NCBI RefSeq assembly: GCF_014840935.1
Contig: NZ_CP062005.1
Location: 2,356,001 to 2,420,000, forward strand
Reading direction: 5' to 3'
Length of the DNA: 64,000 nt
Origin: Halomonas sp. YLGW01
Lineage (GTDB): Bacteria > Pseudomonadota > Gammaproteobacteria > Pseudomonadales > Halomonadaceae
Shown here: positions 53,041 to 63,451 of the stretch, in pieces
Numbering within the stretch: the stretch's first letter is position 1
How the letters are laid out: each line of letters starts with the position of its first letter
Notes under the pieces: generated by a model
The model's database searches: none
The model's input: only the letters and a program-made list of their open reading frames with translations
Told to the model about the DNA's origin: nothing
Program-made: the position numbers and the translations under genes

Positions 53041-54444
53041 TCAGCGCAGCGCGCCATCGCGGGTCAGTTCATCGGTCACCTTGTCCACGGCCCGTTTGAC
53101 GCGGGCAATGATCTCGTCGACCTGATCCCGGGTGGTGATCAGCGGCGGCGCGAAGCCGAGGATATCGCCCTGAGGCATGGCGCGGGCGATCAGGTTCTCC
53201 TCGAGGGCGGCCGCGGCGATCCGCGGGCCAACCTTGAGGCTCGGGTCGAAGTGGGCGCGCTTGGCCGGATTGGCGGAGAACTCAAGCGACGCCAGCATGC
53301 CCACGCCGCGGGCCTGACCGACGATCGGGTGATCACCGAAGGTGGCCTGCATCTGCTGCTGCAGGTAGGCGCCGGTCTCGGCGGCGTTGGCGGTGAGGCC
53401 TTCGCGCTCGATGATCTCCAGGTTGGCAAGCCCCGCCGCGCAGCCCAGCGCATGGCCGGAGTAGGTCCAGCCGTGGCCGATCGGGCCGTATTCGCCGGTG
53501 CCCTGCTCGAGCACCTGCCACACCCGGTCGCCGACGATCACCCCGGACAGCGGCTGATAGGCGCTGGTCAGGCCCTTGGCCACGGTGATCAGGTCCGGCT
53601 TGATGCCGTAGTGATGGCTGCCGAAGTTGCTGCCGATGCGCCCGAAACCACACACCACCTCGTCGGCTATCAGCAGCACGTCGTACTTGTCGAGCACCGC
53701 CTGGATCGCCGCCCAGTAACCCTCCGGTGGCGGCACGATGCCGCCGGTGCCCAGCACCGGCTCGCCGATGAAGGCGGCCACGGTGTCGGGGCCTTCGGCG
53801 AGAATCATCTCCTCGAGCCGGGTCGCGCAGTAGGCCGAGAATTCCTGCTCGCTCATGCCTTCCTGCTCGGCGGCGCGGTGGTAATAGTACGGCGCCTCGG
53901 TGTGGCGAATGGTATCGATCGGCAGGTCGAAATGATCGTGAAACGCCTTCAGGCCGGTCAATGAGCCCGACGCGATGCCGGAGCCGTGATAGCCGCGCAT
54001 CCGCGAAATGACCTTCTTCTTCTGCGGGCGCCCGAGCACGTTGTTGTAATAGCGCACCAGCTTGAGCTGGGTCTCGTTGGCATCTGAGCCTGACATGCCG
54101 TAGTAGACCTTGGACATGCCGGGGCCGGCCAGCTCGAGAATCTTTTCGGAGAGCCTGATCTGCGCTTCGTTGGAGTGCCCCACATAGGTGTGGTAGTAGG
54201 ACATCTCAAGGGCCTGCTTGTAGATGGCCTCGGCCACCTCGGTACGGCCGTAGCCGATGTTGACGCAGTACAGGCCGGCAAAGCCGTCGATGAACTCACG
54301 TCCGTCCATGTCGACGATATTGATGCCCTGACCGCCGGTGATGATCCGGCCCGGCGCATCGCCATGGGCGAAGTCACGCAGGTGGGTAGAGGCGTGGAAG
54401 GTGACCTTGCGATCGCGATCGATCAGCTCCTGATGGGTGCTCAT
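53041..54444 (-). CDS. doeD: DoeD, class III aminotransferase of ectoine degradation (diaminobutyrate transaminase)
   Basis: PLP-dependent transaminase converting L-2,4-diaminobutyrate to aspartate-4-semialdehyde in ectoine catabolism (assignment by family and neighbours). The 467-residue product has PLP lysine K290 in ITVAKGLTSAYQPL, the aspartate LLIADEVVCGFGR and GYHGSGIASGSLTG. Start ATG 54444 with AGGGAG upstream. Next to doeC, which would oxidise its product. Related beta-alanine/taurine-type transaminases share these motifs, so the context carries the specific call. Confidence 0.9.
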   Translation of the reverse strand: MSTHQELIDRDRKVTFHASTHLRDFAHGDAPGRIITGGQGINIVDMDGREFIDGFAGLYCVNIGYGRTEVAEAIYKQALEMSYYHTYVGHSNEAQIRLSEKILELAGPGMSKVYYGMSGSDANETQLKLVRYYNNVLGRPQKKKVISRMRGYHGSGIASGSLTGLKAFHDHFDLPIDTIRHTEAPYYYHRAAEQEGMSEQEFSAYCATRLEEMILAEGPDTVAAFIGEPVLGTGGIVPPPEGYWAAIQAVLDKYDVLLIADEVVCGFGRIGSNFGSHHYGIKPDLITVAKGLTSAYQPLSGVIVGDRVWQVLEQGTGEYGPIGHGWTYSGHALGCAAGLANLEIIEREGLTANAAETGAYLQQQMQATFGDHPIVGQARGVGMLASLEFSANPAKRAHFDPSLKVGPRIAAAALEENLIARAMPQGDILGFAPPLITTRDQVDEIIARVKRAVDKVTDELTRDGALR

Positions 54445-54562
54445 GTTTTTCTCCCTAAAACTCCCCGACCACATCGGGGAGTATGTGCATGGCTTGGCAT
54501 CACATCAGCCAAGACCGTTATCCAATAAGTGCTAGAACCCTGCGAGCGATGGCCAGGCTAGC

Positions 54563-56056
54563 TTAACTACCTGAAACCGAGCCCAGCGCGCCCAGGCAGT
54601 AGTACTTGGTCTCCAGGTATTCATCGATGCCGCCGACGCCACCTTCACGCCCGAGGCCGGACTGCTTGACGCCGCCGAAGGGAATCGGCGGACCGGTCAT
54701 CTTGACCGAGTTGACCGAGACCATGCCGAACTCGAGTGCCCGCAACAGCTTCCAGATGCGCCGGATGTCGTGGGTGTAGACATAGGCGGCGAGGCCGTAT
54801 TCGGTATCGTTGGCCATGGCGATGACTTCATCGTCGTCGCCATAGGCAGTAATGCCGGCCACCGGGGCAAAGTTCTCTTCCCGCCAGACCTTCATCTCGG
54901 GGGTCACCCCGGTCAGCAGCACCGGCATGAAGAAGTTGGGCCCGGGCGCCGCCGACTGATCGCCGGCCACCAGGGTCGCGCCCCGGGAGATGGCGTCATC
55001 GACGATGCTCGCCGCCTTCTCGACCGCCTGGCCATGGATCAGCGGGCCCAGATCGACCTCGCTCTGCAGGCCGTTGCCGACGGTCAGCGCCGCCATCCGC
55101 TCGGCGAAATGCTCGACGAAGGCGTCATGGATCGATTCGTGCACCAGGATACGGTTGGCCGCCAGGCAGTCCTGGCCGGCGGTCTGGAACTTGGCGGCGA
55201 CCGCCGCCAGGGCGGCCTCCCGCGGGTCCATGTCCGGCCCCACGATGAAGGGCGCATTGCCACCCAGTTCCAGCGACACCCGCTTGACGGTGCCGGCGCA
55301 CTGCTCGAGCAGCAGCCGCCCGACCCGGGTGGAGCCGGTGAAGGACAGCGCCTTGACGCGCTCCTCACCGCACAGGATCGAGGACACCTCCGCGGGCTCG
55401 CCCAGCACCACGTTGTAGATGCCCGCCGGGATGCCGGCCCGCTCGGCGAGCTCGGCCAGTGCCAGCGCCGAGAACGGAGTCTCGCCGGCCGGTTTGACGA
55501 TCACCGGGCAGCCCGCGGCCATGGCAGCCGCCGCCTTGCGGGTGATCATCGCCAGCGGGAAGTTCCAGGGCGTGATCAGGGCGGCGATACCGACCGGTTC
55601 CTTGATCGTGCCCAGGGCCGCATTGGGAATGTGGCTGGGAATGGTCTCGCCGAAGGTGCGCTTGCCCTGCTCGGCGAACCACTTGATGAAGCTGGCGCCG
55701 TATTCCACCTCGCCCCGGGCATCCGGCAGCGGCTTGCCCTGCTCCATGGACATCAGGATGGCGAGATCCTCGCGGTGTGCCTGCAAGAGGTCATACCAGG
55801 CCAGCAAACGCTCGGCACGCTCGTCGGCGCGCAGCGCCCGCCACTGGACGAAGGCTCGCTCGGCCGCATCGACGGCACCGCGAATCTGGTCGGCCTCCAG
55901 CCAGGGAATATGCCCAAGGACCTCACCGGTGGCCGGGTCGGTCACGGCCTCCTCGCGGCCACCATCGCCATGGGTCCACTTGCCGTCGACATAGGCGTAC
56001 TGGCGGAACAGGCGGGGATCGTCGAGTCGCTGAGTCACCGTCGTGGACACTTTCAT
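54563..56056 (-). CDS. doeC: DoeC, aldehyde dehydrogenase of ectoine degradation (aspartate-semialdehyde dehydrogenase)
   Basis: NAD(P)-dependent ALDH oxidising aspartate-4-semialdehyde to aspartate in the doe pathway; resembles succinate-semialdehyde dehydrogenase. The 497-residue product has catalytic C297 (TAGQDCLAANR), Glu in VSLELGGNAPF, and the cofactor loop FTGSTRVGR. GGGAGG lies 6 bases before ATG 56056; a longer upstream frame has no site. It leads doeC-doeD, transcribed away from the decarboxylase gene whose terminator lies just upstream. Confidence 0.9.
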   Translation of the reverse strand: MKVSTTVTQRLDDPRLFRQYAYVDGKWTHGDGGREEAVTDPATGEVLGHIPWLEADQIRGAVDAAERAFVQWRALRADERAERLLAWYDLLQAHREDLAILMSMEQGKPLPDARGEVEYGASFIKWFAEQGKRTFGETIPSHIPNAALGTIKEPVGIAALITPWNFPLAMITRKAAAAMAAGCPVIVKPAGETPFSALALAELAERAGIPAGIYNVVLGEPAEVSSILCGEERVKALSFTGSTRVGRLLLEQCAGTVKRVSLELGGNAPFIVGPDMDPREAALAAVAAKFQTAGQDCLAANRILVHESIHDAFVEHFAERMAALTVGNGLQSEVDLGPLIHGQAVEKAASIVDDAISRGATLVAGDQSAAPGPNFFMPVLLTGVTPEMKVWREENFAPVAGITAYGDDDEVIAMANDTEYGLAAYVYTHDIRRIWKLLRALEFGMVSVNSVKMTGPPIPFGGVKQSGLGREGGVGGIDEYLETKYYCLGALGSVSGS

Positions 56057-56393: not shown

Positions 56394-59183
56394 TCAGTCG
56401 GCACCCTCGGAGGTCGCCAGCAGCGCCTCTTCGGTGAACACGATCAGACCAAGCTCCGGGCGATAGCCGTGGATCTCGGTAACATCCAGCGCCTGAAGGA
56501 AATACAGAATCTCCTCGCTGATCACCTGACCCGGCACCAGCACCGGGAAGCCGGGCGGATAGGGAATCACAAAGCTTGCCGAGACGACATCACGTCCTGC
56601 CGCCATGGCGCGCTGCAGTTCCCCGTTGTCGAAGCGCAGGTACTCGGTGTTCTCCTCGTCATAGCTCAAGAAGTAGGCGCGGCGAATGTCACCATCCGGC
56701 GTACCGTCCGCCACATGCGGCCGGAAGGCATCATGGAAGCGACTGAAGTCCGGCAGCGGCGGCAGATCATGGGTCAGCGACTGAATCTGATGTTCGATGA
56801 TCTTGCGCTCAGGGCGACTGCTTTCCTCCCAGCGCCGATCGAAGGACTTGGCCAGCTTGATCAGCACGTCCAGCAGGTAGGCGATCGCCCCGCGGGTGGT
56901 GCCGATGTTGGTCATGAACAGTACGGTATTGCGCGAGGTCTTGTTGATCTGGATGCCGTACTGGTTCATCAGGTAGTCGTTCTTGAAGGCATCGCCGTCG
57001 ATACCGGTCTTGCCAATCGACAGGGTGATGCGGGTCGGGTCGACCACGAACTCGTCCTGGGCCCAGGCCTCCTCCATCTTGTTCCAGCCGGCATTGGGGT
57101 CATAGTAGGTCTCGACCCCTGACTGACGGAACTCGGCAGGCACCAAGTCACTGTTCTTGAGCACCTCGAAATACTTTTTCAACAGCGGGTTGGTATAGAG
57201 CTGTTCACGCAGCGACAGCGCCGCCTCGACCTGGGAGTGCACCAGCTCGAAGCCCTCCATTTCGGCCTGCATCCGCCCCACGTCCAGGGAAGCCAGAATC
57301 TGGTAGTTCGGCGAGGTCGAGGTATGCGTCATGTAGGCTTCGTGGAACGGCGCCTCGACCTTCTGGCGGAAGTCCTGGTCGTAGACATGGATCATCGAGC
57401 CCTGGCGCAGGGAGGTCAGGGTCTTGTGGGTCGAGTGGGTGGCATAGGTGCGCACTCGCACGGCCTCGGGATCCGGCATCAGCGGTCGATCGAGCCAGGT
57501 AGCATCGTCGTCGGGATCGAGCTGATCGAACTCCGCCTTCCAGGCCGCGTATTCCTTGGCATACTCCTCGCTACGGTAGCGGTCGCGCAGATGGCGCGCG
57601 GCATGCATCGCGGTGCGCGGCCGATAGGTCGGGTTGAAGGTGGCGAAGGCGAACCAGGCCTCGTCCCACAGGAACACCAGATCAGGCTTGATGGCCAGGC
57701 ACTCTTCCATGACCCGGCGCACGTTATAGACCACGCCATCGAAGGTACAGTTGGTCAACAGCAGCATCTTGACCTTGTGGAGCTGCCCCGAGCGCTTGTA
57801 TTCCAGCAGCGTCTTCTTGATCTCGCGCAGCGGCACGGCGCCATACATCGAATAATCGTTGAGCGGGTACGAATCCAGATAAGCCACGTGGGCGCCGCTC
57901 AGCACCATGCCGTAATGGTGCGACTTGTGGCAGTCGCGATCGACCAGCACGATGTCGTGGGGCTTGATCAGCGCCTGAACGACGATCTTGTTGGCCGTCG
58001 AGGTGCCGTTGGTGACGAAGAAGCTCTGCCGCGAGCCAAAGGCACGGGCCGCATACTCCTGCGCCTTCTTGATCGGCCCATAGGGCTGCAGCAGGGAATC
58101 CAGGCCACCGGAAGTCGCCGAGGTCTCGGCGAGGAAGATATTGATGCCGTAGAAGTCGATCATCTGCCCGGCCCAGTGCGAGCGGGTGATCGACTTGCCC
58201 CGGGAAATCGGCATGGCATGGAAGACGCCGGTGGGCTTGCGGCTGTACTCGCGCAGCGCATCGAAGAAGGGCGTGCGGAAACGGTTATCGATCGCCCGCA
58301 GGATCGTATGGTGCTGCTCGATGTAATCCGTTTCGCGATAGAAGATCCGGTTGAAGTGACGGATGTCCTTGCTGGCGGTGACTTCCACATCGCCGCTGGT
58401 GACCAGGAACTGGTCGATTTCCGGACGAATCTCGCGAATCATCGAGCTCAGCAGGATGCTGCGCTCGGCCTCGGACTTGCTCTCCAGCTCGACCTCGGAG
58501 ATGCCTTCCAGATAGTTGCGCAGCGCGCTTAAGTTGTACTTCGACTTGTAGGGGAATTCGTAGCGGATCAGGCACGCCTGGATATTCGGGTTGACCAGGA
58601 TCGCGATCAGCGCATCCTCGAAGCTGCGCACCGTCACCACGTCATAGACAAACTTGTCTTCGGGACGGCGCAGGTTGTGGAACGCCTCGCGCACCACTTC
58701 CTCTTCCTGCAGCGACATGGCATCGACGATCAGCACCTCGAAGTAGGGCTGCGAGGAACTGTTCGAGGTCGGGTGACCACGGCGCAGCTGCGCCAGGGCA
58801 TCCAGGGTCTCGAGATCCTCGGCATCGGCGTCGGTCTCGCTGAGGTCGACGTGACGCCGGCGGTAGGACTCGCTGATCATCGCCCGGACCAGGCGCTTGA
58901 CCACCTTCTCCAGCAGCGAATATTCCTGGCGGTTGAACAGGTGCCAGAGATGCCGAAAGTCTTCCTTGGACGGGAAGGCGTGATAGTCCTCGATGATCTC
59001 CAGCCGGGTCAGCTTGATATCAACGGCCTTGACCAGGTTTCGCGCCTGGGCATCGTCCTTCAGCTGTACCAGCTTGCCAAGATCCCGCTTGAGGGCATTC
59101 CATGTATCTGCGCGTAGCTGGGAGATCTTGTGGTAGAACCCCAGAGCCGTATATGGCGTGTCTGTTCCAATCGTCTCACTCAT
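56394..59183 (-). CDS. Orn/Lys/Arg decarboxylase (fold-type I PLP) with long N-terminal extension
   Basis: Basic amino acid decarboxylase, substrate not assignable from sequence. The 929-residue product is much longer than the roughly 710-755 residues of E. coli LdcC/CadA/AdiA. Order: an N-terminal helical extension (about 1-145) of unknown role, the wing/receiver-like Orn_DC_N domain (about 147-290), the PLP core with VDRDCHKSHHYGM, FLWDEAWFAFA and PLP lysine K587 in STHKTLTSLRQGSM, then the C-terminal domain. Start ATG 59183 has GGGGAAG upstream; a 29-residue longer frame is unlikely. It ends the CN-hydrolase / ATP-grasp / C45 / decarboxylase set, 77 bases after the C45 gene. Confidence 0.92.
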   Translation of the reverse strand: MSETIGTDTPYTALGFYHKISQLRADTWNALKRDLGKLVQLKDDAQARNLVKAVDIKLTRLEIIEDYHAFPSKEDFRHLWHLFNRQEYSLLEKVVKRLVRAMISESYRRRHVDLSETDADAEDLETLDALAQLRRGHPTSNSSSQPYFEVLIVDAMSLQEEEVVREAFHNLRRPEDKFVYDVVTVRSFEDALIAILVNPNIQACLIRYEFPYKSKYNLSALRNYLEGISEVELESKSEAERSILLSSMIREIRPEIDQFLVTSGDVEVTASKDIRHFNRIFYRETDYIEQHHTILRAIDNRFRTPFFDALREYSRKPTGVFHAMPISRGKSITRSHWAGQMIDFYGINIFLAETSATSGGLDSLLQPYGPIKKAQEYAARAFGSRQSFFVTNGTSTANKIVVQALIKPHDIVLVDRDCHKSHHYGMVLSGAHVAYLDSYPLNDYSMYGAVPLREIKKTLLEYKRSGQLHKVKMLLLTNCTFDGVVYNVRRVMEECLAIKPDLVFLWDEAWFAFATFNPTYRPRTAMHAARHLRDRYRSEEYAKEYAAWKAEFDQLDPDDDATWLDRPLMPDPEAVRVRTYATHSTHKTLTSLRQGSMIHVYDQDFRQKVEAPFHEAYMTHTSTSPNYQILASLDVGRMQAEMEGFELVHSQVEAALSLREQLYTNPLLKKYFEVLKNSDLVPAEFRQSGVETYYDPNAGWNKMEEAWAQDEFVVDPTRITLSIGKTGIDGDAFKNDYLMNQYGIQINKTSRNTVLFMTNIGTTRGAIAYLLDVLIKLAKSFDRRWEESSRPERKIIEHQIQSLTHDLPPLPDFSRFHDAFRPHVADGTPDGDIRRAYFLSYDEENTEYLRFDNGELQRAMAAGRDVVSASFVIPYPPGFPVLVPGQVISEEILYFLQALDVTEIHGYRPELGLIVFTEEALLATSEGAD

Positions 59184-59259
59184 GGCGCTTCCCCAGCAGT
59201 GCTGCTTGTCATTATTGCGGCTGCTGCGAGCATCCTGCCCGCGCAGCGAAACCGAGAGG

Positions 59260-60303
59260 CTAGCCGGCACCGTGGTGCCGGGGCCCGTAGTGAATGGTGA
59301 AGTTAGTCTCGGGAAAATGCGTGAAGCTCAGATCGACCTCATGCTCAGGCCAGTGGAATTGCACACGACCCTGCAGAGGGCGATAAACCGAGGTGTAAAC
59401 GGTGCCCAGTCCGCGCCGGTGGTCTGTGCGATACAAAGGCGGTGCAAAGAACGCCGAGACCAGACGTTCTTCGGTTGTGGCATCGTCGTCGACCAGAATC
59501 GAGAGTTGCCGCTCGCGAATCAGAGTCTCGGAGGCCAGCGCATGGGCGTACCACTCGATCTTCTTCTGATGATTGGTGGCCACCGGCACGCGTTTGATGG
59601 TGGCCTTGCGATCCGGCGCGATCATCGCCGTGACGTAGCGCCCCTGGGCGTCATTGACGGTGATGTTGTAGGCCATGTGGGTGGGCACCCGCGCCAAGAC
59701 CTCGGCCGCCTCGGGGGTGGTGTCACAGAACTCGAGGATATAGCGCAGGATGATCGGCGCCCCGAAGCCATCGCCGACCACGGTCCGGCCACCGAAGGCC
59801 AGGGAGACCGCCAGACCACTGTCGTTCATGCCATCGAGCACGCCCCACAGGCAATCGGTCATGGCGATCACCTGGCGACCGTTCCAGCACGATGACAGGA
59901 TGGTACCCTCGCACAGTTCGGGCGGGTAATCGTAGTTGCGCACCAGGACATTGCTGTTGCCATTGGCCAGCACCGCCTGGGAACAGCCGGTGATATAGGC
60001 CGGCGGCCGATACAGGCTCAGCATGCGCGAGGAAAGATCGCCGCCGCCGGCAAGCGCACACAGCCGCTCGTAAGTCGGCAGCAGCTCGGGCATGTGGCGT
60101 CGCAGGGCATTGAAGCCGGCCAGATAGCCTGGCCGCTCCCGCTCGCCTTCGGACAGGAACCAGCGCTCGTAGGCCGACCAGTGCAGCTCGAACAGCGACT
60201 GCCACTTCGCACCGGCCTGCGGCTCGTGGACGGTGCGAAAGGCCAGTTGCTTGGCCATGTCTGCCTGCCAGTGGCGTCCGGACCGTCCTGTTGCGGTATC
60301 CAT
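59260..60303 (-). CDS. C45-family autoproteolytic acyltransferase/hydrolase
   Basis: N-terminal-nucleophile protein of the acyl-CoA:6-aminopenicillanate acyltransferase (C45) family, 347 residues. The expected nucleophile is C107 in ITGCSQAVLANGN, to be freed by self-cleavage at Gly-Cys; downstream VLVRNYDYPP, GMNDSGLAVSLAFGG and AYNITVNDAQG are typical. Relatives make or break amides (penicillin acyl transfer; beta-alanyl-dopamine hydrolysis by Tan). The start ATG 60303 lies 2 bases after the ATP-grasp stop, indicating coupling; ATG 60258 is an alternative. No signal peptide. Confidence 0.88.
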   Translation of the reverse strand: MDTATGRSGRHWQADMAKQLAFRTVHEPQAGAKWQSLFELHWSAYERWFLSEGERERPGYLAGFNALRRHMPELLPTYERLCALAGGGDLSSRMLSLYRPPAYITGCSQAVLANGNSNVLVRNYDYPPELCEGTILSSCWNGRQVIAMTDCLWGVLDGMNDSGLAVSLAFGGRTVVGDGFGAPIILRYILEFCDTTPEAAEVLARVPTHMAYNITVNDAQGRYVTAMIAPDRKATIKRVPVATNHQKKIEWYAHALASETLIRERQLSILVDDDATTEERLVSAFFAPPLYRTDHRRGLGTVYTSVYRPLQGRVQFHWPEHEVDLSFTHFPETNFTIHYGPRHHGAG

Positions 60304-60305
60304 GA

Positions 60306-61775
60306 TCAAAGGATCTTGAAGTTGCCGCCGCCCACCGCATGGTTCACGGCGACCTGCTCGACGACCGGGTCCTGCACCGACTGACCGGCAAACTGCCCGC
60401 GAATGCCGTCGATCCAGGCCTTGGCGCGCTCGTTGAGCTGGAAGTCGTCATCCATCAGGCGACCGCGGGTGATCAGGATGCCGAGATCCGCGCCCTCGTA
60501 GCGGAAGTCACCGACGCCGCTGATGCGCATGAAGAAGGCCTCCTGCTCGCTCTCGGCGGCGTGGGGATGCGAATCATAGTGGTCGTAGGCGATGCTGCCA
60601 TCCGCCGCCATGCGCCAGACCCCGGACTCCGGCGCCTGAGTGAGCAGGTCCACCGACTCATCGGTGTGCTTGATCACCAGCTGGCTCCAGCTGTCGATGC
60701 TGTCCGGGTGCGCCCAGCGATCGTTGACGGCCTGGATATCGATGTCGAAGTCCTGGCCCGAGAATTCGAGCAGGTGGAACAGGAACAGCGGCACGTCGGA
60801 GTGGGCAAAGGCCGCGACGTTGGTCAGCGAGCTGGCGCCAGTCACCCGCGGGTTGAGTTCGCCGAGATAGACCTCGTTGGTATCCATGTCGATCAGGAAG
60901 TCGAGCTCGAAGTAGCCACGATAGCCCTCCTCGCGCAGCGCCTCACCGAACTTGTTGGTGTACTCCTGGGCCTTGTCGCGCACCTCCTGGGTGAAGGCAC
61001 CGGCAAACATCTCGTTGCCGCACCAGCCCCCCTTATAAGGCGTCAGCGTCTTGAAGCCGACCAGCTCGGTCATCAGCGGGCCCACCACGGTGCCACAGCG
61101 CGTGGCGCAGGCCTCGATGGCCGAGCCGCGGCAGTTGATGCGCTTCATGATCTTGACCTCTTCCTCGGCCTCGATCTCTTCGGCGTAGCGGTAATACTCA
61201 TCCTCGTTGGAGACGAAGAAGGTGGTGTGGCCGGAGTCGCCAAAGGCCGACTGGATGACCAGATCGTGGGTCCCCAGCTCCTTGCTGATCTCCAGCAGAT
61301 GCTGATAGCTGTCGACCTTGGCCAGCACGTTGGGCACGCTGGGCACGCCCACCTTGTTGCCGATGCGCACCGTCTCGATCTTGTTGTCCATCCGCGAACG
61401 CAGCTTGGCCGGCGGGAAGGCCACCCGCAGCCCGAGCTGTTCGCAGATTTCCTCGGTGTGCTCATCGAACATCAAAAAGGCCGCCACGCCCTGCTCGCCG
61501 CGGGAGCGGATGTAGTCGATGACCTCCTTGTGCTCGAGCAGATAGTTGTTGATGTCCTCGATGCTCTCGAAGTCGCGCGGAAACTTCTCCTTGGGCACGA
61601 AGACATTCTTCTGCTTGTCATCGAAGCAGTTGATGTAGTTGATGTGGCGGAAGTTACCCACCCAGTCACCGATCCCCAGCAGGTTGAAATTGGTCGCCGA
61701 GATGAAATAGACCGGTTCCTTGTTGTTATGGAAGAAACGGCGCACGTCGGAGATGCTAGTCAGTTTTGTTGTCAT
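60306..61775 (-). CDS. ATP-grasp carboxylate-amine ligase family protein
   Basis: ATP-dependent ligase of the ATP-grasp superfamily; often labelled biotin carboxylase-like, but no biotin-carboxylase partners are nearby. The 489-residue product has the N-terminal VYFISATNFNLLGIGDW, the ATP-binding region FGDSGHTTFFV, and metal-binding E306 and N308 in LGELNPRVTGASS. AAAAGGAG lies 8 bases before ATG 61775. The frame is open upstream to an ATG at 61913 that has its own AAAAGGAG, so a 46-residue N-terminal extension is possible. Overlap with the C45 gene suggests ligation and amide transfer/hydrolysis in one pathway. Confidence 0.88.
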   Translation of the reverse strand: MTTKLTSISDVRRFFHNNKEPVYFISATNFNLLGIGDWVGNFRHINYINCFDDKQKNVFVPKEKFPRDFESIEDINNYLLEHKEVIDYIRSRGEQGVAAFLMFDEHTEEICEQLGLRVAFPPAKLRSRMDNKIETVRIGNKVGVPSVPNVLAKVDSYQHLLEISKELGTHDLVIQSAFGDSGHTTFFVSNEDEYYRYAEEIEAEEEVKIMKRINCRGSAIEACATRCGTVVGPLMTELVGFKTLTPYKGGWCGNEMFAGAFTQEVRDKAQEYTNKFGEALREEGYRGYFELDFLIDMDTNEVYLGELNPRVTGASSLTNVAAFAHSDVPLFLFHLLEFSGQDFDIDIQAVNDRWAHPDSIDSWSQLVIKHTDESVDLLTQAPESGVWRMAADGSIAYDHYDSHPHAAESEQEAFFMRISGVGDFRYEGADLGILITRGRLMDDDFQLNERAKAWIDGIRGQFAGQSVQDPVVEQVAVNHAVGGGNFKIL

Positions 61776-61800
61776 GGCGCTGACTCCTTTTGAATGACGA

Positions 61801-61855
61801 TCCTGAGTGGCTTGGGCAGGATGGGGAACGCCACCGTTTCGGGTGGCGCTCAGGA
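61801..61855 (-). promoter_or_regulatory. Nested inverted repeats in the leader of the ATP-grasp gene
   Basis: Inner stem CGCCACC / GGTGGCG (61829-61835, 61842-61848) lies inside outer arms TCCTGAG / CTCAGGA (61801-61807, 61849-61855). On the minus-strand RNA this gives a compact structured element 26 bases before the ATP-grasp start, within the possible in-frame extension. Confidence 0.45.
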
Positions 61856-61956
61856 GACTCCTCAGGCGAGAGAGCAGACGTTGTAATCCTTGGGGGATGG
61901 GGGGTGCCACCATGAACTCCTTTTCAATGCGGGCCGCCCGTCGTCAGGCAGCCGAC

Positions 61957-62826
61957 TCAATAGGGCTCGATATCCCGACGCGCCGGCTTCGCCAGCGGGC
62001 CCAGGGTATCGAGGAAGGGAGTGGAGCCGGTCTCGCTCCGGTACAGCGAAAAGTCCACCTGACGGTCGCGGAAGCTCTTCAGCGGCTGACCGAGCCCGCG
62101 CAGCCCCGCCTCGCGTTCGCGTCGCACCCGGGTCACGTCGATCTCGATCGGCATGATCTCCTCGCCGATACCGGCCTGATGAATCACGTCACCGGACGGC
62201 CCGACCACGATCGAGCGGCCGTTGCCCAGCGCACCGGCGCCGTTGATATCGAAGAAATAGCACTGGTTGACCGCGGCATTGGTGCGGGCGATCGACAGCT
62301 CGATATCCCGGTCGATGGTATCGGTCATGGTCGGATGCAGGATCACCTCGGCGCCCATGGCGGCCAGGGTGCGCGTGGTTTCCGGGAACCACATGTCGTA
62401 GCAGATCGAGACACCGAAGCGACCGATGTTGGGCACGTCGAAGACCACGAACTCGGTGCCGCCCTCGACGCCCGCCTCGTAGGGGCGGAACGGGAACAGC
62501 TTGCGGAAACGGTTGACCACCTGCCCCTGGGGATTGATCACGCTCAGGGTGTTGTAGACGCGCTCACCTACCCGCTCGAACATCGAGCCGGGAATCAGCC
62601 ACAGACGATGCTTCTCGGCCAGTTCACAGAACATGGCCTCGGTGCCACTGGGCATGGGCTGTGCGTTCAGCGGCGAGGCCCCATGGGCGATCAGCTCACT
62701 GAAGACGACCATCTGCACATGGGGAAAACGCGACACCAGCATCTCGATGCGAGCGCGCATGGCATCGGTGTTATCACCGTGGTGAGGTGCCTGAAGCTGC
62801 ACCCCGGCAATCGTGAAATAAGACAT
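61957..62826 (-). CDS. Carbon-nitrogen hydrolase (nitrilase superfamily)
   Basis: Amidase-type hydrolase, 289 residues. Catalytic triad E44 (VVFSELIAHG), K109 (VNRFRKLFPFRPYE) and C142 (GVSICYDMWFPET), so a thiol amidase/N-carbamoyl-type enzyme; actual substrate unknown. GAGG lies 6 bases before ATG 62826. First gene of the four-gene set between doeX and doeC; the N-carbamoylputrescine and omega-amidase branches are possible comparisons given the nearby basic amino acid decarboxylase. Confidence 0.92.
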   Translation of the reverse strand: MSYFTIAGVQLQAPHHGDNTDAMRARIEMLVSRFPHVQMVVFSELIAHGASPLNAQPMPSGTEAMFCELAEKHRLWLIPGSMFERVGERVYNTLSVINPQGQVVNRFRKLFPFRPYEAGVEGGTEFVVFDVPNIGRFGVSICYDMWFPETTRTLAAMGAEVILHPTMTDTIDRDIELSIARTNAAVNQCYFFDINGAGALGNGRSIVVGPSGDVIHQAGIGEEIMPIEIDVTRVRREREAGLRGLGQPLKSFRDRQVDFSLYRSETGSTPFLDTLGPLAKPARRDIEPY

Positions 62827-62980: not shown

Positions 62981-63451
62981 TTAATCGAGTCCCAGCTCGA
63001 TCGATGGGGCAGCATGTTTGACGGTCTTGGTGACGATGTAGGTGAAATAGCGCTGGATACCGATCTCCGACATCAGCCAGCCATCGATCAGGCGCTGATA
63101 GGCATCGATGGTTTCGGCCTCGACCTTGATCAGATAATCGACGCCGCCCCCCACGGCCACACACTCGGTGACTTCGGGGGTCGCCATGACCTCGGCCTCG
63201 AAGCGCTGGAAATCGGCGGCATGATGGGACTTGAGCTCGATCTGCACCCAGACCGGCGTGCGTCGCACCATCACCCGGGAATTGATGCGCGCCCCGTAGC
63301 CCTCGATGATGCCGGCCTTCTCGAGCCGCCTGACCCGCTCCCAGCAGGGGCTGACGGACAGGCTGATGGCCTCGGCCAGGCGCGACTTGGTGATGCGCCC
63401 GTCCTTGGACAGGATCTCGAGAATCTTCAGGTCATAGCGGTCGAGCTTCAT
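62981..63451 (-). CDS. doeX: DoeX, Lrp/AsnC family regulator of ectoine degradation
   Basis: Feast/famine regulator, 156 residues. N-terminal winged HTH (about 5-55; LKILEILSKDGRITKSRLAEAISLSVSPCWERVRRLE, quoted by ends) and C-terminal RAM ligand domain (VWVQIELKSHHAADF, CVAVGGGVDYLIKVEAE). It follows doeB by 7 bases, as in the doeABX operon of Halomonas elongata. GAGG lies 6 bases before ATG 63451. Confidence 0.92.
   Translation of the reverse strand: MKLDRYDLKILEILSKDGRITKSRLAEAISLSVSPCWERVRRLEKAGIIEGYGARINSRVMVRRTPVWVQIELKSHHAADFQRFEAEVMATPEVTECVAVGGGVDYLIKVEAETIDAYQRLIDGWLMSEIGIQRYFTYIVTKTVKHAAPSIELGLD

Follow-up and report, generated by a model that had tools for sequence, protein, structure and literature searches.

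The window analysed here is a 64,000-nucleotide stretch of the Halomonas sp. YLGW01 genome (contig NZ_CP062005.1, positions 2,356,001 to 2,420,000 of the forward strand), in which the ectoine degradation (doe) locus carries four genes between doeX and doeC: a nitrilase-superfamily hydrolase (NIT), an ATP-grasp ligase (ATPg), a C45-family acyltransferase/hydrolase (C45), and a long decarboxylase of the Orn/Lys/Arg type (ODC). Open reading frame (ORF) and profile searches recovered all four on the minus strand at positions 56394-62826, where the initial annotation had placed them, and the order of transcription is doeX, NIT, ATPg, C45, ODC, doeC, doeD:

62981-63451, minus strand: doeX, Lrp/AsnC regulator, upstream of the module (PF01037/PF13412)
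61957-62826, minus strand: NIT, nitrilase-superfamily (carbon-nitrogen hydrolase) amidase, 289 aa counted from the ATG (PF00795, 1.4e-28)
60306-61913, core from an inner ATG at 61775, minus strand: ATPg, ATP-grasp ligase, NF005096/PRK06524 ('biotin carboxylase'; 755 bits, cut-off 684)
59260-60303 or 60309, minus strand: C45, autoproteolytic Ntn acyltransferase/hydrolase with nucleophile Cys109 (NF040521, 172.8 bits, cut-off 85)
56394-59183, ORF opening at 59270, minus strand: ODC, long fold-I decarboxylase dependent on pyridoxal phosphate (PLP), Orn/Lys/Arg type (PF01276, 4.1e-77)
54563-56056, minus strand: doeC, downstream aldehyde dehydrogenase resembling succinate-semialdehyde dehydrogenase (SSADH), the top NCBIfam matches being SSADHs, below cut-offs
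53041-54474, minus strand: doeD, class III aminotransferase (NF005684, 812 bits, cut-off 687)

ATPg and C45 abut, and the remaining gaps measure 154 nt (doeX–NIT), 43 nt (NIT–ATPg), 76 nt (C45–ODC), and 337 nt (ODC–doeC). A promoter and terminator scan was rejected as evidence of operon boundaries, its counts being close to those of shuffles. In H. elongata, the three ORFs separating doeAB from eutBC are doeX, doeC, and doeD (PMC3187862). The two loci thus have their Halomonadaceae address and these three genes in common and—because the three alone fill the interval there—NIT, ATPg, C45, and ODC constitute an insertion relative to the H. elongata arrangement.

Conservation of the four-gene set

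A scan of close relatives with ATPg as the query gave 110 confirmed loci; we retained the best 80, a selection therefore biased towards near relatives. The complete four-gene set was present in 78 of the 80, the exceptions being a locus cut by a contig end (L060) and one lacking NIT (L081). The exact order doeX-NIT-ATPg-C45-ODC-doeC occurred in 70 loci, all from Halomonas and its kin, and no doeX-doeC pair was found in the fetched stretch of the other ten (L009, L014, L016, L017, L018, L020, L026, L060, L078, L081), which are mostly from Marinobacter.

For wider genome samples we used the ATPg profile NF005096 at E 1e-40, which matched 11 of 398 genomes in a phylum sample, 8 of 274 in a class sample, and 12 of 249 and 52 of 244 in two order samples. 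Among 45 wider loci with flanks (L120-L127, L190-L226; mostly distant, with a few genomes represented twice and a few stretches cut by contig ends), C45 lay near ATPg in 43, NIT in 37, and ODC in 36, and all four genes were together in 31; ATPg and C45 are thus the firmest pair of the module. Gene order varies by lineage, Rhodobacterales-like genomes often showing NIT-ODC-ATPg-C45, and the association has therefore been kept through rearrangement. Plasmid records lacking annotation were interpreted mainly via BLAST.

On these counts (78/80 close and 31/45 wider loci) we rejected a scattered or chance assembly of the genes. The claim that the four families belong together as a unit thus holds in close relatives and distant loci alike, and in most relatives the genes are not dispersed. 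Literature searches on the gene set or on combinations of its enzymes returned no paper describing it, in line with the earlier statement that no described pathway with this exact composition was known.

Residue signatures of the four enzymes

Over most of its length, the nearest solved relative of ODC is Rv2531c, the M. tuberculosis 'probable amino acid decarboxylase' (structures 9n0n, 9n0o, 9n0p; E ~5e-252 for 9n0n/9n0o). In M. tuberculosis, growth on arginine did not depend crucially on this gene (PMC4569260). We aligned 53 proteins of this family—45 of the module type (including two lone copies and some near-duplicates) and eight from a sister group—with E. coli CadA, LdcC, AdiA, and SpeF. 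ODC shares family and catalytic residues with these references, His245, Asp330, and the PLP lysine Lys367 (CadA numbering) being kept in 53/53. It differs from them in the presumed pocket: position 526, which is Glu in CadA, LdcC, and SpeF and Thr in AdiA, is Asn in all 53 proteins (45/45 module-type, 8/8 sister); position 530 is Arg in 51 (43/45 and 8/8, respectively); and the E. coli motif PGE reads PGQ in 53/53. A motif script found Asn526 and Arg530 in 69/69 intact ORFs of doe-linked ODC from 70 loci (L065 yielded none).

The eight sister proteins are 44-46% identical to the window's ODC and form one clade inside the family (FastTree support 1.0). In the same analysis, the core of module-type ODCs received a support of 0.889, and the deep module copies of L125, L126, and L224 fell outside it. 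Each of the eight sister-clade genes (L263-L268, L138, L139) is accompanied by two genes for AspT-type antiporters no more than 3.5 kb away; unlike the module, these decarboxylase-antiporter loci gave no match to ATPg, C45, NIT, or GabT in the eight examined, and the AspT query had no match in the other 65 loci examined. The sister decarboxylase and its two antiporters may serve acid resistance or generate a proton motive force. When a decarboxylase is paired with an antiporter, the two normally have the same substrate and product. AspT itself swaps aspartate for alanine (PMC9508256). Given the pocket residues and the pairing of the sister clade with antiporters of this type, it is more likely that ODC decarboxylates an acidic amino acid—glutamate, giving gamma-aminobutyrate (GABA)—than a basic one. 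The earlier proposal of a decarboxylase acting on a basic amino acid is weakened by these antiporters as well as by the change from Glu to Asn in the pocket.

The AlphaFold model of ATPg (pLDDT 90) resembles biotin carboxylases: the 50 listed Foldseek matches are all such enzymes or proteins containing one, at 11-17% identity. In a low-identity alignment with AccC, K238, Q294, E296, and R338 were each found in 0 of 23 ATPg copies, and K116, E288, N290, and R292 were kept in 23/23. We rejected a true biotin carboxylase on the grounds that, although the fold is similar, several site residues differ; because key carboxylase residues are absent, ATPg is better read as a putative carboxylate-amine (amide) ligase, with the residue picture being a mixed one. 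Copies from Halomonas, Marinobacter, and other Gammaproteobacteria carry an N-terminal extension of about 45 residues or more (window positions 61776-61913), which starts basic and amphipathic-looking and could serve as a membrane tether; many other ORFs begin at the core.

C45 and NIT look catalytically intact as judged from their alignments. The C45 nucleophile Cys109 was invariant in 26/26 sequences, and the C45 model (pLDDT 91.1) adopts the AAT fold, with the isopenicillin N acyltransferase precursor (2x1c) as top fold match; comparison of C45 with PDB sequences gave no match of value. In a 22-row NIT alignment (one row truncated), the Cys of the Glu-Lys-Cys triad was invariant (CYDxWFPE) and Glu and Lys were present in at least 90%; NIT scored far under every specific NCBIfam cut-off listed. 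The view that the four families imply both making and breaking of amide bonds is supported. The window's own genome encodes a second C45/AAT-family gene outside the module (G000:C1:3254334-3255026, L002; PF03417, 92 bits).

The module and ectoine degradation

The initial annotation had taken diaminobutyrate derived from ectoine as the obvious local substrate, which would make the module a branch of ectoine degradation. Its position between doeX and doeC in 70 of the 80 close loci fits such a branch, as does a gene annotated ectB near ODC on one Sinorhizobium plasmid, and in the window's own genome DoeA lies ~3 kb upstream of ATPg. Elsewhere, however, the module does not sit beside doe genes: copies in Marinobacter, Rhodobacterales, Cupriavidus, rhizobial plasmids, and others—sometimes reordered or minus one member—have none in their vicinity, and no doeB was labelled near the module in the distant loci. 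An M24 peptidase adjoining the module in L018, L020, and L078 was rejected as DoeA at only 25-26% identity.

Nor was DoeA (TIGR02993) clearly enriched in genomes with the module. At E 1e-100 it was found in 32 of 39 module genomes versus 16 of 20 module-free genomes, and above the curated cut-off in 20/39 versus 6/20; as the module-free genomes all belong to one family (f73), the comparison inside that family reads 19/22 versus 16/20 and 9/22 versus 6/20, respectively. Outside the Halomonadaceae, DoeA mostly sits on a contig other than the module's, and in the seven non-halomonad genomes having both on one contig the closest pair is ~128 kb apart (G779). The ODC pocket fingerprint, moreover, is identical in doe-linked and doe-free copies, and H. 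elongata degrades ectoine with doeC directly after doeX (PMC3187862).

A diaminobutyrate branch is therefore very unlikely in our estimation. Since the module stands without doe genes in other lineages, its link to ectoine is a local one and diaminobutyrate as the substrate is left unsupported; we conclude that the doe address reflects local capture in the Halomonadaceae. Functional use at this address, for instance of glutamate formed by DoeD, is possible.

A GABA-centred model and competing explanations

We searched for GabT in 39 module genomes, comprising 22 of the 52 and 9 of the 12 from the two order samples, 6 of the 8 from the class sample, and two from the phylum sample. GabT exceeded the TIGR00700 cut-off in 31 of them, as a single copy in 30. 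In 17 of these 31 genomes, gabT lay within 12 kb of ATPg, where 0.2 would be expected under random placement; the 17 span seven families and their gene orders differ. Three of four neighbouring aminotransferases examined scored above the TIGR00700 cut-off and the fourth (L203) is a different class III type, and the SSADH gene of L223/L240 scored above that of TIGR01780. Loci L240 and L241 unite gabT, SSADH, ODC, C45, and ATPg in one set. A small glyoxalase/VOC-family protein recurs next to module and gabT in L216, L217, L218, L222, and L223.

Further neighbours concern glutamate and arginine. In L220, the sequence upstream of ODC encodes a glutamate dehydrogenase ACT domain; three rhizobial copies have a Glu/Leu/Phe/Val dehydrogenase gene close by, and several of the Rhodobacterales-like loci include a gene for an FMN glutamate synthase. 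Transporters include TRAP systems, which we take to be of the TAXI type, in 13 of 67 loci, peptide-type ABC transporters in some loci, and a dicarboxylate symporter in Cupriavidus. In all six Shinella-type loci (L131, L135, L137, L210, L212, L214), ATPg and C45 lie inside an arginine (arginine-to-GABA) operon together with a 5-guanidino-2-oxopentanoate decarboxylase (6/6) and an agmatinase-type gene (5/6), with NIT in the stretch in 5/6. Since ATPg and C45, mostly with NIT close by, accompany an arginine-to-GABA route here, the core seems to act around GABA regardless of where the GABA comes from.

The reading we tentatively favour—plausible, though short of probable—is that the four genes form an autonomous, GABA-centred module for making and breaking amides, captured by the doe locus in the Halomonadaceae. 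The gene set and its conservation, the kept catalytic residues, the linkage to gabT, the absence of carboxylase residues, and the pocket change are what we observe; substrates, step order, and direction are what we infer. ODC, its specificity having shifted from basic substrates to those with an acidic or amide side chain, would convert glutamate or a gamma-glutamyl compound to GABA or a GABA amide. ATPg, as a carboxylate-amine ligase, would build an amide onto glutamate or GABA. Opening such amides to free GABA would fall to the C45 Ntn hydrolase and to NIT as a nitrilase-type amidase, and GabT and SSADH could then carry GABA to succinate.

Several observations weigh against this model. The weakest point is that plain glutamate decarboxylation needs no ligase, which leaves the role of ATPg unexplained. 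The AccC comparison is mixed, R292—which we take to contact bicarbonate—being kept in all 23 copies of that low-identity alignment and K159 and E276, presumably ATP/Mg residues, being Q and D in 23/23; the assignment of K238, Q294, E296, and R338 to a bicarbonate/biotin site is likewise our assumption. So is the substrate contact at CadA position 526, for which a literature search on E526 found nothing. The AspT relatives were named through annotation and homology only (29-79% identity), and the TRAP neighbours bear on glutamate through the general background that TAXI transporters can carry it. Ten of the 17 genomes with gabT nearby belong to one family (f73), the other seven falling into six families, of which f27, f293, and f294 are in the window's own class. 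In 14 of the 31 GabT-bearing genomes gabT was not within 12 kb, many having it on another contig, and none was near the module in ten Halomonadaceae/Marinobacter genomes, in four of which gabT and module share a contig but are separated by 71 kb or more, the rest having gabT on other contigs. One Shinella-like plasmid (its record deposited under Roseateles sp. XES5) has ODC at a separate site, close to genes for arginase and ornithine cyclodeaminase, which fits a basic substrate. Finally, Rv2531c is without assigned activity (PMC12910592).

The linkage to gabT is shared by an explanation along the lines of the Puu pathway of polyamine use, in which ODC would yield a diamine, ATPg would add a protecting acyl group (e.g. 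gamma-glutamyl), other enzymes would oxidise the product, and C45/NIT would free GABA. The two systems are alike in that a ligase using ATP and a hydrolase acting on amides are clustered with GabT and a cupin-type regulator: an XRE-cupin regulator, presumably of the PuuR kind, is encoded in 8 of 67 loci, often adjoining gabT, and C45 could fill the amide-opening role that we take PuuD to have. The module nevertheless differs in having an ATP-grasp rather than a glutamine-synthetase-type ligase, C45 in place of PuuD, and an extra decarboxylase. Neither an amine oxidase nor a PuuC-type dehydrogenase was recognised among its genes (no profile search for PuuB/PuuC was made), SSADH is the sole redox gene among the labelled genes of L240 and L241 (not all unlabelled ORFs were searched), and neither the ODC pocket nor the sister-clade antiporters suit a diamine precursor. 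Overall, we regard a Puu-like route as quite unlikely.

The gabT and SSADH neighbours, together with the place of NIT within the amidase superfamily, would also fit an oxidative decarboxylation, in which ODC and O2 turn ornithine, arginine, or lysine into a shortened amide that NIT hydrolyses and GabT-type enzymes finish, analogous to DavB-DavA-DavT-DavD. The Shinella-like ODC near arginase and ornithine cyclodeaminase fits this route too, as do amidase-signature genes, not all of them close relatives of one another, near the module in some NIT-less lineages (L081, L223/L240, and rhizobial L130/L132/L136). As a general replacement of NIT the amidase was rejected, since it holds only in some lineages: neither NIT nor amidase was found in the fetched stretch of L125, L126, L129, L211, L220, L224, and L225 (L220 and L225 cut by contig ends), which also counts against the oxidative route. 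The latter, moreover, gives ATPg and C45 no role and sits poorly with the AspT-type antiporters of the sister clade, and we know of no oxygenase-type PLP enzyme in ODC's family. We therefore hold it to be decidedly unlikely.

A further group of neighbours relates to stress. Universal stress protein genes lie beside the module, as cluster c19 in five loci and also by annotation. In Rhodobacterales-like L128, L230, L231, and L239, genes for a sigma factor, NepR, a response regulator, and a histidine kinase adjoin the module-gabT cluster (from annotation and shared unlabelled ORFs), in what looks like a general stress response locus. Both sets, as well as the halophilic nature of Halomonas and Marinobacter, could be accommodated by a biosynthetic role, in which the ligase would make an amide containing GABA or glutamate, as a compatible solute or for use under stress, and C45/NIT would recycle it. 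The stress genes may, however, be chance neighbours, and nearby importers, GabT, and SSADH indicate breakdown instead, so that this alternative seems unlikely to us.

Among the remaining neighbourhoods, plasmids of Rhizobium leguminosarum and Sinorhizobium (L129, L130, L132, L136) combine ODC-ATPg-C45 with peptide ABC transporters and—L129 excepted—an amidase. The module directly adjoins nifHDKEN in L132, and L129 and several Sinorhizobium medicae copies appear broken or split. In deep-branching L224, L225, and L126, C45 or ODC is flanked by genes for TPR proteins and for proteins that look secreted or located in the outer membrane, most of them lacking a Pfam match; overall, several flanking proteins had none.

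Returning to the GABA-centred model, a bolder form of it—possible, albeit doubtful—is a GABA-amide cycle not yet described, in which an enzyme with the OKR fold, adapted to glutamate or to gamma-glutamyl amides, would work with a ligase mis-named 'biotin carboxylase', and C45 and NIT would open the amides formed. Such a cycle, having spread between lineages, would be a new way into or out of GABA, and loci for ectoine, for arginine, and on nodule plasmids would each have captured it.

The four enzymes, which carry mistaken or vague names, co-occur in many Pseudomonadota, including marine, soil, and root-nodule bacteria. The ligase was present in 52 of the 244 genomes sampled from one order, and there are copies on rhizobial plasmids, of which one adjoins nif genes. 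The doe setting serves as a warning that position alone is a poor guide to ectoine function. Should the four genes indeed form a new GABA route, neither 'biotin carboxylase' nor 'ornithine decarboxylase' would be a correct label for these enzymes. The model also offers a testable substrate class for Rv2531c-type decarboxylases.

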